Shown here in pieces: positions 5,312-43,841 of a stretch of DNA of 64,000 nt. A program made the position numbers and the translations under genes. Below the pieces are notes generated by a model. It worked only from the letters and a program-made list of their open reading frames with translations, did no database searches and was not told where the DNA came from. The stretch spans positions 62,001-126,000 of the forward strand of contig CACASE010000002.1 in assembly GCA_902535165.1 (NCBI GenBank), read 5' to 3'. How positions within the stretch are numbered: the stretch's first letter is position 1; each line of letters starts with the position of its first letter. The DNA comes from an uncultured Bacteroidota bacterium (GTDB taxonomy: Bacteria > Bacteroidota > Bacteroidia > Flavobacteriales > Flavobacteriaceae).

Positions 5312-5862
5312 CACTTAATTAAATCATTTCTAAGTTTTAAAACATATTGAGATATTTGCCATCTTTCTTTATCATTGACTTGACCAGCATGAGAACCCAT
5401 TAAATTAATACCGTGCATCAATACATGATAAATAGACCCTTCTGTGATATCTCTGTCTGCATAACTTGGTATGCCAAGAAATTTTTCTCTTTCCATTAAA
5501 ATACCATTACCATCACCTTTTGAGCCGTGACAAACAGAACAGTATATTTCATACATTTTTTTCCCGTTTTTAAGATTCTCTTCATTTTTCTCGAATGGAG
5601 ATTTCAACTCAACTTTAGCTAATTCATAACCATCAGTAGAGTTCTCATACTCGTATGGTTGCCATCCTCGCGGAATAGATTCTTCGACAGGGAGTTGAGC
5701 TTCAATTCCATTAGGAAAGGCTTCAGATTCATCATACGTTCCATATCCTACTGATTCATACATGTTTGGAAAATACTGATAATTAGGTTTTGAAGGGTCA
5801 AAACAAGATAACATCATAGATATTATTAAAAAATAGCCTGTATTTTTAAACAACTTGTTCAT
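5311..5862 (-). CDS. actE: Alternative complex III subunit ActE, lipoprotein cytochrome c
   Basis: Monohaem cytochrome c subunit of alternative complex III. The 183-residue protein starts with a lipoprotein signal peptide ending in a MLSC lipobox, so it is predicted to be lipid-anchored. A single haem-binding motif CSVCH follows GKKMYEIY, and MGSHAGQ supplies a likely axial methionine region. The start codon overlaps the actD stop as TAATG, and its stop overlaps the actF start, so the three genes are probably translationally coupled. Confidence 0.93.
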   Translation of the reverse strand: MNKLFKNTGYFLIISMMLSCFDPSKPNYQYFPNMYESVGYGTYDESEAFPNGIEAQLPVEESIPRGWQPYEYENSTDGYELAKVELKSPFEKNEENLKNGKKMYEIYCSVCHGSKGDGNGILMEREKFLGIPSYADRDITEGSIYHVLMHGINLMGSHAGQVNDKERWQISQYVLKLRNDLIK

Positions 5863-6731
5863 TAAATAATTATACTTTTATAAACATCCTCAAAATCAAT
5901 TGATCCACTAGAAAATTTATTTTTTGCTTTTTTGATATTATCCTTTAATGCATTTAGAGATTTATTTATTTTGATGTAATCAACATGTTTATCACTAACT
6001 TCATTTTTTTTAGATATCCAATGCTTTCTAAAAATTCTTAAACCTGAATTTTTTGCATACTGCTGTCCTCTTCCTTTAGTAAATTGAATTCTTAAATTAG
6101 AAGAACCATCAGAATACTTTCTTGAATGAAATACAAATCCAATTGTAATTTCTGAATCTCGATCTTGTACATTACTTTGTACATTATCAATTTCTTCATT
6201 ATTTTCTTTTTTTGCGTCAATAACAGACATTTTAAATAAATCTGTTTTTTTCAAAATAGATTTAATTTTACTTTCGTTTCCATATATAGGTATCTGAATT
6301 AAGAACTTATCATCTGTAGTTTCTGGTATTGGATTTTCAGCTTTTTTAAACGGCCATAATCTACTTCTAAGATAAAATGTAATGACCATTAAGTGCCCTG
6401 TAAAGAAAACTGTTAATTCAAACATAACTGGAACAAAAGCTGGCATATTTTCCTGAAAGCTAAAACTAGGTTTACCGCCAATATTTTGAGGCCAATCAAC
6501 AATCATAATATAATTAATCATTAAAAGTGCAAAAGTAAAACCAACACAACCATATAAGAATGCAGCTATAGCAATTCTTGTAGGAGCTAATCCCATTACG
6601 TGATCTAAACCATGCACAGGAAATGGCGTAAACACTTCCTCAATGGTAACTTTATTTTCTTTTAGATCTTTGACAGCATCTAAAAGTTTATCATCATCAT
6701 CATATACAGCATGTATAAATTTATTTGCCAT
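5862..6731 (-). CDS. actD: Alternative complex III subunit ActD with C-terminal integrase-arm-like extension
   Basis: Residues 1-172 are a normal ActD (DUF3341): a soluble N-terminal part with EEVFTPFPVHGLD, two membrane helices near 50-75 and 100-120, and the typical RSRLWPFKKAENP stretch. The family normally ends near residue 175. Here an acidic linker (173-194) leads into an extra domain (195-289) with a basic beta-rich part (DGSSNLRIQFTKGRGQQ), the motif SGLRIFRKHW and an amphipathic helix KINKSLNALKDNI. This pattern is that of the N-terminal arm DNA-binding domain of Bacteroidota tyrosine integrases; no core-binding or catalytic integrase part follows. Overlaps with actC and actE (TAATG) are intact. 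Certain as ActD; the nature of the extension is my reading of the pattern. Confidence 0.9.
   Translation of the reverse strand: MANKFIHAVYDDDDKLLDAVKDLKENKVTIEEVFTPFPVHGLDHVMGLAPTRIAIAAFLYGCVGFTFALLMINYIMIVDWPQNIGGKPSFSFQENMPAFVPVMFELTVFFTGHLMVITFYLRSRLWPFKKAENPIPETTDDKFLIQIPIYGNESKIKSILKKTDLFKMSVIDAKKENNEEIDNVQSNVQDRDSEITIGFVFHSRKYSDGSSNLRIQFTKGRGQQYAKNSGLRIFRKHWISKKNEVSDKHVDYIKINKSLNALKDNIKKAKNKFSSGSIDFEDVYKSIII
5865..6149 (-). other. Integrase arm-type DNA-binding-like domain inside actD
   Basis: Codons 195-289 of actD. The segment has the arm-domain signature: DGxSxxxIR-like strands, SGLRI..KHW, and an IN..L..L...I helix. No methionine exists between the end of the ActD domain and this segment, so it should be translated only as part of ActD. 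The family assignment rests on pattern recognition, not on a search. Confidence 0.65.
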
Positions 6732-12475: not shown

Positions 12476-12641
12476 AAAAAGAAAGTTTATTTTAGTTTTT
12501 AAAAGGTTGTTTTTTCTAGTTTCCAACAATCAAAAATTGCTCATTCTTTTAAAGAGAGTAAATATAATAAAGAATTATTATATTAGGAAAGAAAAATAGT
12601 TGATTTTTCTCTAATTTTAATTGAATAAAAGCTATCACGTA

Positions 12642-13049
12642 ATGCACATCGTAATGTATAATTGTTTTTTAAGTAAAAAATCTTTTTTTTCTATTTTTTT
12701 TGCCTTGATTTTTTTTAATGTTTCTAGCCAGAATTTAAATAGAAAAATAAATGATAATCCTAAGTTTTTAAAACTAATTGAACTGTCAAAAAATGCTAAT
12801 AATGAATACTTTAAGTCAAATTATTTTTCAATTCAAGTTTACAGCGGAACATATAATGAAGCTGATTCTATTATGAATTTTGTGAAGGAGAAATATATTA
12901 ATGACAGTATTTATTTTTTCTTTGAAACACCAAACTATAAAGTTCAGTTAGGAAAATATAGGTCTAAAATTGAAGCTCAAAAAAGTCTAAGAGAAGTGTC
13001 AAAAGTATTCAAATCAGCATTTATTCTAAAACCTAATACTAAGACTTAA
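12642..13049 (+). CDS. Small exported SPOR-like domain protein
   Basis: A protein of about 135 residues with a hydrophobic N-terminal segment ([17 protein letters not shown]) that looks like a signal peptide, followed by a basic linker and a C-terminal SPOR-like fold: [19 protein letters not shown], then [22 protein letters not shown] domains bind denuded peptidoglycan. The gene stands between the divergent act operon and infB, the place a SPOR gene occupies in related genomes. Possible starts are the ATGs at 12642 and 12654, or a TTG at 12621; the ATG at 12654 gives the tidiest signal peptide. Its 3' end overlaps infB by 11 bp. Confidence 0.75.
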
Positions 13050-39965: not shown

Positions 39966-40712
39966 TTATTTTTTAATATTTGCTTTAACATATTCTCTGT
40001 TAAGCTTAGCAATGTAATCTAATGAGATACCCTTAGGGCACTCAACATGACATGCACCAGTATTTGTACAATTTCCAAAACCTTCTTCATCCATCTGATT
40101 AACCATATTTAAAACTCTGTCAGTAGCTTCAACCTTACCTTGTGGTAATAAAGAAAATTGGGAAACTTTTGCAGAAACAAAAAGCATAGCAGATGAGTTT
40201 TTACAACTAGCAACACATGCACCACAACCAATACATGTTGCAGCATCAAATGCTTTATCAGCATTTTCTTTTTCTATAGGTATTGTATTAGCATCTAAAG
40301 TATTCCCAGATGTATTTATCGAAATAAATCCACCTGATTGTTGTATTCTATCAAAAGCCGATCTATCAACAACTAAATCTTTAATAATTGGGAAAGCTTT
40401 AGCTCTAAATGGCTCAATGTATATAGTGTCACCATCTTTAAATTTTCTCATGTGAAGCTGACAAGTAGTAATTAATTTATCAGGACCGTGAGGCTCACCA
40501 TTTATAAACATGGAGCAAGAACCACAAATACCCTCTCTACAATCATGATCAAATGCAACAGGATCACCGTTCTCCTCAATTATTTTTTCATTTAGCACAT
40601 CCATCATTTCAAGAAATGACATATCAGGGGAAATATTATCAATCTCATAATCAATCATACTACCTTTTGATTTATTATTTTTTTGTCTCCATATTTTTAA
40701 ATACAATTTCAT
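39966..40712 (-). CDS. sdhB: Succinate dehydrogenase/fumarate reductase iron-sulfur subunit
   Basis: Carries electrons from the FAD of SdhA through three Fe-S clusters to quinone at SdhC. 248 residues: the [2Fe-2S] ligands in CREGICGSC and a later TTCQLH, the first ferredoxin motif [11 protein letters not shown], and [12 protein letters not shown] for the [3Fe-4S]/[4Fe-4S] clusters. Standard length. Its ATG overlaps the sdhA stop (TAATG). Confidence 0.96.
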
Positions 40713-43015
40713 TATTTATATGATCTACTTTTTAATTCAACATTCTCAAATTGTAATTGTTCCTTGTGTAATTTAGACAACTCTATATTAGGGTTATGCT
40801 CCCAAGCTGAAACAAATCTAAATTCATCGTCATTTCTTAAAGCTTCACCCTCTTTAGTTTGATACTCTTCCCTAAAATGACCTCCACAAGACTCATTTCT
40901 ATTAAGTGCATCTAATGCAAATAATTCACCTAATTCCATAAAATCAGCAACCCTCAAGGCTTTTGCTAATGATTCATTGAAAGAAGATTTTTCACCAGGG
41001 ACTTTTATATTTTTATAGAAATTTTTTCTCAGATTTTGAATGTCTTTGATCGCTTTTTTTAAGTCCTTTTTATTTCTTGACATCCCACAATTATTCCAAA
41101 TTATTTTACCTAACTTCTTGTGAAAATAGTCAACTGATTTTGATCCTTTATTTGCCATAATTTTATCAATTTTTTCTTCAACCAATTTTTTTGCATCTTC
41201 AAATTCAGGTAAATCTGATGAAATTGGTCCAGTTTTGATATCATCGGCTAGAAAATCATTTATTGTGTTTGGAAGCACAAAATAGCCATCGGCTAATCCT
41301 TGCATTAGTGCAGATGCTCCAAGCCTATTTGCTCCATGATCTGAAAAATTAGCTTCACCAATAGCATAGCAACCTGGAATGGTTGTCATTAAATTGTAAT
41401 CAACCCAAAGTCCTCCCATTGTATAATGAACAGCAGGATAAATCATCATAGGAGTTTTATATGGATTTTCATCTACAATTTTCTCATACATCTGAAATAA
41501 ATTGCCATATTTGGCCTTTATAACTTGCTCTCCTAAAGACCTAACTAAATTAATATCATCAGTGTCTAATCCTTTAATTAAAGCTTTCTCTTTTCCATAT
41601 CTAATTATGGAAGAAGAAAAGTCTAGAAATACAGCTTCTCCTGTTTTATTAACTCCAAAGCCGGCGTCACATCTTTCTTTAGCAGCTCTAGATGCAACAT
41701 CACGCGGAACTAAGTTCCCAAATGCAGGGTATCTTCTTTCTAGATAATAATCTCTATCATCCTCACTTAGATCAGTTGGTTTAAGCTTACCTTCTCTAAT
41801 TTTTATTGCATCATCTATTTTTTTCGGAACCCAAATTCTTCCATCATTTCTTAGAGACTCAGACATCAAGGTAAGTTTAGACTGATAATCGCCTGAAACA
41901 GGTATACAAGTTGGATGAATTTGTGTGAATGAAGGATTTGCAAAAAGAGCTCCTTTTTTATGCACTTTCCAAGCTGCAGATACATTACTACCCATAGCAT
42001 TAGTAGATAGATAAAATAAATTACCATAACCACCAGATGCCAAAACAACTGCATGAGCAGAATGACTTTCTATCTCACCAGTAATTAAATTGCGAGTGAT
42101 TATTCCTCTTGCTTTACCATCAACTATAACTATGTCCATCATTTCATGTCTTGTAAACATTTTTATTTTACCTCTGGCTACTTGTCTATTCATTGCCGAG
42201 TATGCGCCCAGTAATAATTGCTGTCCAGTTTGTCCTTTTGCATAAAAAGTTCTAGAGACCAATACACCACCAAATGACCTGTTATCTAAAAGACCCCCAT
42301 ACTCTCTCGCAAATGGAACTCCTTGAGCAACACATTGATCAATAATACTAGATGAAACTTCTGCTAATCTATAAACATTAGCCTCTCTAGATCTGTAATC
42401 ACCTCCTTTGATAGTATCATAAAATAATCTGTAAACTGAGTCACCATCACCCTGATAATTTTTAGCAGCGTTAATACCCCCTTGTGCTGCAATAGAATGA
42501 GCTCTCCTGGATGAGTCTTGAAAACAAAAAGCTTTGACATTATACCCCTGTTCTGCTAATGTAGCAGATGCAGAACCGCCAGCCAATCCAGTACCGACAA
42601 CGATTACATCAATATTTCTTTTATTAGCAGGGCTAACTAATCGAACATTATTTTTATGATTACCCCATTTAAGATCTAACGGACCATTAGGGATGTTTGA
42701 TTTAAGTAGTGATTTGGATTGTAATGGTTTTAAATCCTTTATTAAGGAGTGTAAATCAATTGATTTATTTCTAATCAATCTATTTTTTTCTAAAAATTCC
42801 GGATCGGATGATTTGATAGGATGTCTATTGTCAGACTTATGCCAGTCAGAATCCCAATCCTTAAGCTTACACTTAACACCTGTACTTTTTTTAATTACCT
42901 TTTGAGTTCCGTTTTCAAATTTGTGGTAATACCTGACACAAACTGTTAAGCTATCATCATCATTATACTCTTCCTTTGGTTTTCGATAATTAAGAGAATA
43001 GGTTATTTTTTTCAT
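40712..43015 (-). CDS. sdhA: Succinate dehydrogenase flavoprotein subunit with N-terminal integrase-arm-like extension
   Basis: Residues from about 104 to 767 are a standard Bacteroidota SdhA: IPNGPL, the FAD-binding [15 protein letters not shown], the covalent-flavin histidine in [18 protein letters not shown] and the active-site region around [17 protein letters not shown]. Relatives are about 665 residues. The first 100 residues are extra: a basic/beta segment ([19 protein letters not shown]), [15 protein letters not shown], then the helix [18 protein letters not shown], a pattern of tyrosine-integrase arm DNA-binding domains. The reading frame is continuous; the only in-frame alternative start close to the SdhA core is a TTG at 42778 (codon 80), which would remove most of the extension. 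Confidence 0.9.
42731..43015 (-). other. Integrase arm-type DNA-binding-like domain at the SdhA N-terminus
   Basis: Codons 1-95 of sdhA. Signature elements: RKPK near the start, an exposed beta-hairpin ending [13 protein letters not shown], and an EKNRLIRNK helix matching the conserved IN..L helix of arm domains. It differs in sequence from the ActD extension, so the two are not recent copies of each other. Assignment is by pattern only. Confidence 0.65.
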
Positions 43016-43018
43016 TCA

Positions 43019-43166
43019 CGTGTTAAAAGTAATAATAAATAATAAAATATAAAAAAATTGATAAAAATACTTTTATAACACAGATGGAATCTGATTATTA
43101 TTATTAATTTATAACACATAAAAGATTTATTTATGTGTTATAAATATGTACATTATGTGTTAAAAT
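43019..43166. repeat. Cluster of five TGTGTTA/TAACACA motifs in the sdhC-sdhA gap
   Basis: Copies on the plus strand: cGTGTTA (43019-43025), TAACACA (43076-43082), TAACACA (43112-43118), TGTGTTA (43134-43140) and TGTGTTA (43156-43162). The last three start exactly 22 bp apart, about two helical turns. Copies three and four form a 16-bp perfect inverted repeat (43107-43122 with 43130-43145, loop 7 nt). The last copy overlaps the sdhC stop codon. Most copies are flanked by the same TTTAT or AAA context. The 137-bp gap is long for an sdh operon. A small hairpin CAGAT-GGA-ATCTG lies at 43081-43093. Confidence 0.8.
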
Positions 43167-43821
43167 GCATAAAAAAATGAAATAATGCTATAAAACAAAA
43201 TCCAGCTGGTATTCCAATGCCGAATGCATAACTTATTTTATTTATAATTGAAGAGTATTTATTATTAGTTCCTAATGATTGTGTTGAAGAAGAAAGCCCG
43301 TGTATTAGATGAAGGGATAAAAAAATAAATGATAAGCAATATAATCCTACTCTAACAGGATTTTCAAATTTATGTATCAATTCTTCATAATACCTGTCAG
43401 GATCTTCTGGTAATACTTGAATATATTTATAATCCATTTCAGGTACCCAAAAATCATAAAAATGTAAAGCTAAAAAGGATAAAATTACGATTCCCGAAAT
43501 AATCATGTTTCTAGAAACAAACATTGAATTTCTTGATCCTTTGTAAACTGCATATTTTACAGGCCTAGCTTTGCGATTTTGCCAATCTAAAACAAAACCC
43601 ATTACAAAATGAAATATAACACCAACAATTAAGATTGGCTGTAAAATAAACTGAACCAACGGGTTATTACCCATAAAATGTGAAAGCATATTAAAAATAC
43701 TTTCACTGAAAACGGAGGTTATATTAATTAAGAAGTGCTGAGTTAAAAAAACTATCAAAAATACCCCAGAAAGTGCCATGGCAATTTTTCTACCAATCGA
43801 GGAATTAAAAAGCTTTTTCAT
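43153..43821 (-). CDS. sdhC: Succinate dehydrogenase cytochrome b subunit
   Basis: Membrane anchor with b-type haem and the quinone site; five hydrophobic helices fit the single-anchor-subunit (type B) complex II of Bacteroidota. About 222 residues with SSIGRKIAMALSGVFLIVFLTQH at the start and HLIHGLSSSTQSLG near the end. The start is the ATG at 43821, or one two codons earlier at 43827. First gene of sdhCAB; a good promoter lies directly upstream. Confidence 0.93.
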   Translation of the reverse strand: MKKLFNSSIGRKIAMALSGVFLIVFLTQHFLINITSVFSESIFNMLSHFMGNNPLVQFILQPILIVGVIFHFVMGFVLDWQNRKARPVKYAVYKGSRNSMFVSRNMIISGIVILSFLALHFYDFWVPEMDYKYIQVLPEDPDRYYEELIHKFENPVRVGLYCLSFIFLSLHLIHGLSSSTQSLGTNNKYSSIINKISYAFGIGIPAGFCFIALFHFFMHFNT

Positions 43822-43841
43822 TATCAAATCTAAATAGATTA

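Follow-up and report, generated by a model that had tools for sequence, protein, structure and literature searches.

Respiratory subunits of marine Flavobacteriales with fused integrase-arm or excisionase-type domains: candidates for autogenous transcription regulators

SdhA, the flavoprotein of succinate dehydrogenase, carries an N-terminal DNA-binding domain of the kind found in the arms of integrases, and short repeats accumulate upstream of the fused genes. This was found in the window, a stretch of 64,000 nucleotides from contig CACASE010000002.1 of an uncultured member of the Flavobacteriaceae (GCA_902535165.1), and in related genomes. From the combination of domain and repeats we consider it probable that SdhA acts as an autogenous transcription regulator, i.e. 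as a trigger enzyme: its arm would bind GTGTTAYA repeats, free SdhA would repress sdhA, perhaps together with sdhB, and assembly would withdraw SdhA from the DNA. With moderate confidence we also favour a more general reading. Core respiratory subunits (SdhA and ActD of alternative complex III) may have become their own transcription regulators by capture of integrase-arm or excisionase domains together with their sites. In streamlined marine Flavobacteriales this would have happened at least twice on SdhA, coupling complex assembly to expression without a separate regulator gene.

The sdh operon of the window has the order sdhC-sdhA-sdhB, all on the minus strand, and sdhA is adjoined by both other genes. 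It comprises sdhC, the cytochrome b subunit (43153..43827; open frame and PF01127 domain match), sdhA (40712..43015; open frame, Pfam and NCBIfam) and sdhB, the iron-sulfur subunit (39966..40712; open frame and neighbourhood). The sdhA frame starts with an ATG at 43015, is free of stops and encodes 767 aa, composed of the N-terminal arm domain, a linker and a complete SdhA core. A sequence-only reading of the window had placed the beginning of the core near residue 104, in accordance with the match to NCBIfam NF005749, which covers residues 102–767 with 1155 bits (cut-off 866) and denotes a full-length complex II flavoprotein; PF00890 and PF02910 are matched as well. For comparison, among the matches listed for the order sample, unfused SdhA frames measure about 666–690 aa and most of them match the SdhA profile only from about position 85–102. 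The extra N-terminal domain of about 100 residues that had been noticed in this stop-free frame corresponds to the Pfam domain Arm-DNA-bind_5 (PF17293) at residues 14–96 (42728..42976, minus strand). A translation start at the TTG at 42778 was considered and ruled out, since this TTG, codon 80 of sdhA, falls inside the conserved arm. Methionine is absent at the canonical core start in 17 of 17 aligned fused SdhA, and start codons (ATG, GTG or TTG, differing between loci) are found at or just before the arm. The whole sdhA frame is therefore very probably translated.

A relation of this N-terminus to integrase arms had been proposed from the letters alone and was borne out in three ways. PF17293 is matched with E 1.5e-6 and scores 29.1 bits with the 105-aa fragment and 23.0 bits with the whole protein (gathering cut-off 22.6). 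The profile comparison that had been suggested for residues 1–100 was carried out against an alignment of 11 integrase arms, and hhalign returned a probability of 96 with E 2.7e-9. One of these 11 arms belongs to a complete tyrosine recombinase of the sister genome G013 with the domains PF17293, PF13102 and PF00589, to which the SdhA arm is 40% identical over 89 aa. The arm domains of tyrosine recombinases recognise accessory arm sites on DNA (PMC8138268). The arms of SdhA and ActD are homologous to these domains; they come without the core-binding and catalytic domains of a recombinase and are fused to SdhA or ActD instead. In Pfam the catalytic domain PF00589 is absent from both proteins of the window, so that neither is a tyrosine recombinase. 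A PDB sequence search with the arm profile gave no match at E 10. The SdhA arms of families f11 and f8 are divergent and stay under the gathering score of PF17293; three fused f11 SdhA match A4, a profile made from genus g1 only, from position 1.

A chimera or misassembly of the window SdhA, which the sequence-only reading had left open together with the occurrence of the fusion in sister genomes, can be excluded, since assemblies obtained independently, from single cells and from metagenomes, share the fusion. When named genomes (assemblies of these two types with the label Bacteroidetes or Flavobacteriales, some of which duplicate our G genomes) were scanned with the arm, 29 loci were obtained; 28 of these continue into SdhA and one (L079) ends with its contig. 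Within genus g1, 19 genomes have an SdhA-profile match. Fourteen are fully fused, three are unfused (G005, G009 and G014), and in the remaining two SdhA is cut, by a contig end inside the arm in G017 and ahead of the N-terminus in G004. PF17293 itself is matched in 16 of the 23 g1 genomes. At E 1e-97 the fusion was found in 7 of 397 genomes scanned in the family (g1, g5, g56 and g68) and, among 395 genomes scanned in the class, in the window's own genome only. The order sample of 395 contributed at least three f11 genomes and at least one f8 genome, a count that is a lower bound because an arm followed by a long linker escapes the profile. Matches to PF17293 as such are common (108 of 149 family genomes, mostly in frames of integrase length), which makes its family-wide presence uninformative. 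The assemblies of fused genomes measure 0.9–1.9 Mb, many of them being incomplete; that of the window has 1.32 Mb in 40 contigs and is 82% complete. At E up to 10, exactly two of its proteins match PF17293, namely SdhA and ActD. With the profile of the SdhA arm, SdhA alone was found in this 82% complete genome, and no integrase with such an arm was seen.

The SdhA arm is under purifying selection, with a median dN/dS of 0.044 (7 pairs with usable dS) compared to 0.01 in the SdhA core (15 pairs), most pairs being saturated. In a tree of the SdhA core based on 230 columns, rows with the arm, rows with the helix-turn-helix (HTH) domain described below and rows without fusion are intermingled at low support, so that this tree cannot count gains and losses.

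Fused genes are separated from sdhC by an enlarged spacer, which has 137 nt in the window (43016..43152, minus strand). Measured from the end of the sdhC open frame, the gap amounts to 65–183 nt in 22 of 24 arm loci and 103–234 nt in 8 of 8 HTH loci, whereas all 30 unfused loci examined have gaps of −4 to 18 nt. Reading of the spacers of fused loci revealed GTGTTACA-like repeats. In the window, candidate operator sites GTGTTATA are located at 43074..43081 and 43110..43117 on the minus strand and at 43135..43142 on the plus strand. Two candidate operator hexamers GTGTTA on the plus strand accompany them, one 4 nt from the sdhA start codon (43020..43025) and one within the 3' end of sdhC (43157..43162). 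An unbiased 7-mer scan of the regions upstream of 24 fused and 30 unfused loci ranked TAACACA first, the reverse complement of TGTGTTA; two or more copies in 260 nt are present in 17 of the 24 fused loci and in none of the 30 unfused ones. For GTGTTA the corresponding numbers are 20 of 24 and 0 of 30, with one copy each in two unfused loci and in the fused L065 and L067, and none in L098 and L099. Without the latter two, 22 fused regions of 170 nt contain 74 hexamers compared to 4.3 in dinucleotide shuffles (maximum 9 in 300 shuffles). Two or more sites occur in 20 of these 22 versus 0 of 31 unfused loci (Fisher 1e-12), a value that is overstated since the counts are not independent, 10 of the 24 fused loci being from g1 and named loci repeating G genomes.

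All 29 named loci have at least one hexamer within 190 nt and 26 have two or more; a single one near sdhA is found in L065–L067 and likewise in L200. Loci that had not been used in motif discovery show the sites as well, three in the arm-fused L198 and four in L201. The GTGTTA pattern is present in families f1, f8 and f11, and one unfused f6 locus (L091) has one octamer of the GTGTTAYA type. Throughout the window genome 75 GTGTTAYA octamers were counted versus 68 for the reversed control, and octamers spaced by less than 160 nt occur upstream of sdhA only, namely the three at 43074, 43110 and 43135. A strict promoter pattern after the Bacteroidota-type consensus is found in 3 of 32 fused and 0 of 30 unfused spacers, and these few cases do not establish an internal promoter.

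In two f11 loci, L098 and L099, the arm-SdhA follows right behind sdhC with gaps of 4 and 7 nt. Here, 5 and 4 hexamers, respectively, are located upstream of sdhC; of 2000 shuffles, none attained the first number and one the second. In a set of 47 distinct sdh loci in which sdhC is preceded by at least 200 nt, seven have two or more hexamers there (L065, L066, L072, L077, L204 and those of G358 and G398). These seven belong to the 23 arm-fused loci, compared to 0 of 9 HTH loci and 0 of 15 unfused loci. The arm-fused L204, unused in motif discovery, has three sites ahead of sdhA and, at distances of 11–12 bp, another three ahead of sdhC. That L098 and L099 keep repeats upstream of sdhC while lacking the spacer speaks for a function. 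In principle, the repeats could be occupied by another regulator, or repeats and arm could travel together merely through their adjacency; the latter is weakened by these two loci.

In family f6, SdhA bears an N-terminal HTH_17 domain in eight loci from seven genomes (L087–L090 and L092–L095). PF12728 was matched with E 1e-10 to 1e-14 and 42.2–54.5 bits (cut-off 27) in five of five tested, and the excisionase model TIGR01764 scored 40.9 (cut-off 28.8) on SdhA of L094. A search for HTH_17 in 15 genomes, 12 of them from f6, gave nine matches in eight genomes, the eighth being G218, and all nine are in SdhA-length frames of 734–760 aa. Four of the 12 f6 genomes have no match; considering also the unfused SdhA of G005, G009 and G014, the device is dispensable. 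The f6 domain resembles the excisionase-family HTH (PF12728/TIGR01764) in that it scores above both cut-offs and has upstream direct repeats phased by 10 bp, and it differs in being fused to SdhA. These spacer repeats are of the RGACAAA type. RGACA was counted 36 times in the eight f6 HTH spacers versus 3.7 in shuffles, and pairs at 10 or 11 bp were counted 20 times versus 0.02 (maximum 1 of 500), with 0 in 31 unfused loci. The locus L222 of G218, found later and unused in motif discovery, contains four units 10 bp apart, three of which fit RGACA, the third unit being CGACA, and in addition a pair at the start. Of the unfused f6 SdhA, L096 has a 7-nt gap and no RGACA, and L091 has two RGACA and no pair. 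We propose that the HTH_17 domain on SdhA may follow the same logic of self-regulation as the arm, and, on weaker grounds, that this may also hold for the arm on ActD described below.

According to the proposed mechanism, the arm would have been recruited from the integrase of a mobile element and would bind the GTGTTAYA-like repeats of the enlarged sdhC-sdhA spacer or, in lineages without spacer, the repeats upstream of sdhC. SdhA outside the membrane complex with SdhB and SdhC would sit on this operator and repress sdhA, possibly with sdhB. Incorporation into complex II at the membrane would then remove SdhA from the operator, so that synthesis would track demand. The domain with its conservation and purifying selection, the repeats, their near-exclusive association with the fusion and their clustering at sdhA in the window genome are observations; the binding of the arm to the repeats, the regulation, its repressing sign and the switch by assembly or redox state we infer. 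As a sub-variant the arm might be an activator of sdhAB, which we regard as unlikely. The usual position of an activator is a site just upstream of a −33-like box, and in L068, L073 and L080 the repeats indeed occur just upstream of a −33-like TTTG, a promoter-like box. In f6, in L081/L097 and in part of g1 (e.g. L082, L147 and L150), however, a site lies on the start codon or a short distance ahead of it, which is the usual position of a repressor.

Autogenous regulation by SdhA also has to be weighed against a passive remnant. An integrative element could have inserted between sdhC and sdhA, leaving in one piece its arm-type sites and the beginning of int (of xis in f6), fused in frame and now without function. 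Sites and domain do share one enlarged block, and arm-bearing integrases and Xis proteins co-occur in mobile elements (PMC8138268). Furthermore, frames of 534–535 aa with arms resembling the SdhA arm exist in G013 (L237), G074 (L235) and G767 (L236), and the SdhA arms group with these integrase arms in an arm tree of low support and long branches, the ActD arms being apart. Against a remnant, the arm is under purifying selection and conserved across genera, the f6 repeats are phased by 10 bp, and the G013 integrase locus (3.3 kb) contains no GTGTTAYA. In addition, the sites are kept in divergent loci and, in loci without the spacer, precede sdhC at the operon promoter, where they are not expected for a remnant. 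We thus consider a functionless remnant improbable. It is plausible, on the other hand, that the 5' end of int, or of xis in f6, was captured together with its binding sites. The G013 integrase, a tyrosine recombinase by Pfam, is located just downstream of an apparent tRNA gene.

In G158 (L234) the arm is a separate ORF of 131 aa with four GTGTTA sites upstream. It matches the SdhA-arm profile with E 2.7e-38 and scores 17 bits in Pfam, under the cut-off. On reading of the DNA, sdhC-like fragments flank this ORF; a different SDH flavoprotein (NF005866) and a 297-aa protein are found downstream. This arrangement, seen in one genome, fits a regulator that has outlived its fused enzyme or a recent remnant.

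The second respiratory arm fusion in the window, which had been proposed to be independent of that on SdhA, concerns ActD. The actD gene of alternative complex III (5862..6731, minus strand) encodes 289 aa with a C-terminal arm; the Arm-DNA-bind_5 domain at residues 204–273 (5913..6122, minus strand; Pfam) scores 25.1, above the cut-off of 22.6. The arms of SdhA and ActD hardly match directly and are separated in the weakly supported arm tree, so that independent acquisition is likely. In g1, ActD frames of 288–298 aa with a C-terminal arm were found in eight genomes and frames of 178–180 aa in six, the others being cut by contig ends or not found. Some f6 ActD have a lysine-rich C-terminal tail (L117, L118, L128, L137 and L138).

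Upstream of actA a candidate act operator is located, the direct repeat ACATTACGATGTGCATTAC (12639..12657, minus strand), which overlaps the start of a divergent gene. A repeat of the same kind within the actD linker (6170..6187, plus strand) encodes NVQSNVQ. The direct repeat RCATTAY-N5-RCATTAY is present upstream of actA in five of five proven fusions, namely those with a retrievable upstream region (window, G003, G018, G012 and G007), and in none of four unfused genomes (G014, G016, G009 and G002). It is also found in G010, where ActD runs off the contig, and in G006 and G011, which were chosen by pattern match and in which the C-terminus of ActD is not visible. CATTAY pairs have several matches in each of the 23 g1 genomes, above the reversed control in 23 of 23 (both strands summed), and those inspected away from act lie in open frames. 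The repeat was derived from these very sequences, is common genome-wide and extends into the beginning of the divergent gene. Coding constraint and common ancestry are therefore confounders, and the assignment of the repeat as operator of the ActD arm is no more than suggestive. A pair CATTAT...TGTGCATTAC with the same TGTGCATTAC spacing was observed in G000 (L205, C1:23764-23781), where a gene divergent from an ABC transporter operon begins, and also in G008; the ActD arm possibly has an additional target here, or the pair arose by chance within coding sequence.

SdhA is a cytoplasmic subunit. The termini of ActD are cytoplasmic in the solved complex (PMC5928083), and contact of both proteins with DNA is thus spatially possible. 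DNA-binding domains on the cytoplasmic side of two inner-membrane complexes would also suit a tether by which respiratory complexes anchor the nucleoid or just the sdh locus to the membrane, as would the lysine-rich ActD tail of some f6 genomes. However, a general tether needs many sites, and the window genome shows no enrichment of the SdhA site, which clusters only at sdhA. This demotes a global nucleoid tether and leaves room for a local one of the sdh locus only; overall we consider tethering very improbable. There is hardly any likelihood that the domain was added for protein contacts in assembly or in a supercomplex, in which arm domains can take part, with something else binding the repeats, as SdhA has received domains of two DNA-binding families at one position, and a distinct repeat type accompanies each of them.

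The autogenous regulation proposed for SdhA can be compared to known systems. PutA (trifunctional proline utilization A) is a flavoenzyme with an N-terminal DNA-binding domain of the ribbon-helix-helix type. It acts as a repressor of the gene that encodes it and moves between DNA and the membrane in response to proline and the flavin redox state (PMC5293562). Judged by sequence, SdhA is also a flavoenzyme with a fused DNA-binding domain; the repeats that co-occur with the fusion are a candidate operator at its own gene. Unlike PutA, SdhA is part of an integral complex II, its domain is an integrase arm or a Xis-type HTH, and its regulatory role is a proposal made here. In the control by epistasy of synthesis in chloroplasts, the synthesis of subunits responds to how far their complex has been assembled (PMC12449265). 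Assembly feedback is proposed for SdhA as well; the chloroplast case concerns chloroplast-encoded photosynthetic subunits and the level of translation, whereas control of transcription is proposed for SdhA. To our knowledge, no DNA-binding domain on the subunit takes part in epistasy of synthesis. A fusion of SdhA with a DNA-binding domain was not found reported in the open-access literature as far as accessible, by which its absence in print is not shown.

If the proposal is true, trigger enzymes would include a new form, namely a core subunit of a respiratory complex that regulates its own gene by binding DNA, and DNA-binding modules of integration and excision would have been domesticated directly. 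With two domains at the same place on SdhA, each with its own repeat code, the case is cheaply testable. Regulation of this kind possibly explains how organisms with small genomes match their respiratory complexes to demand.
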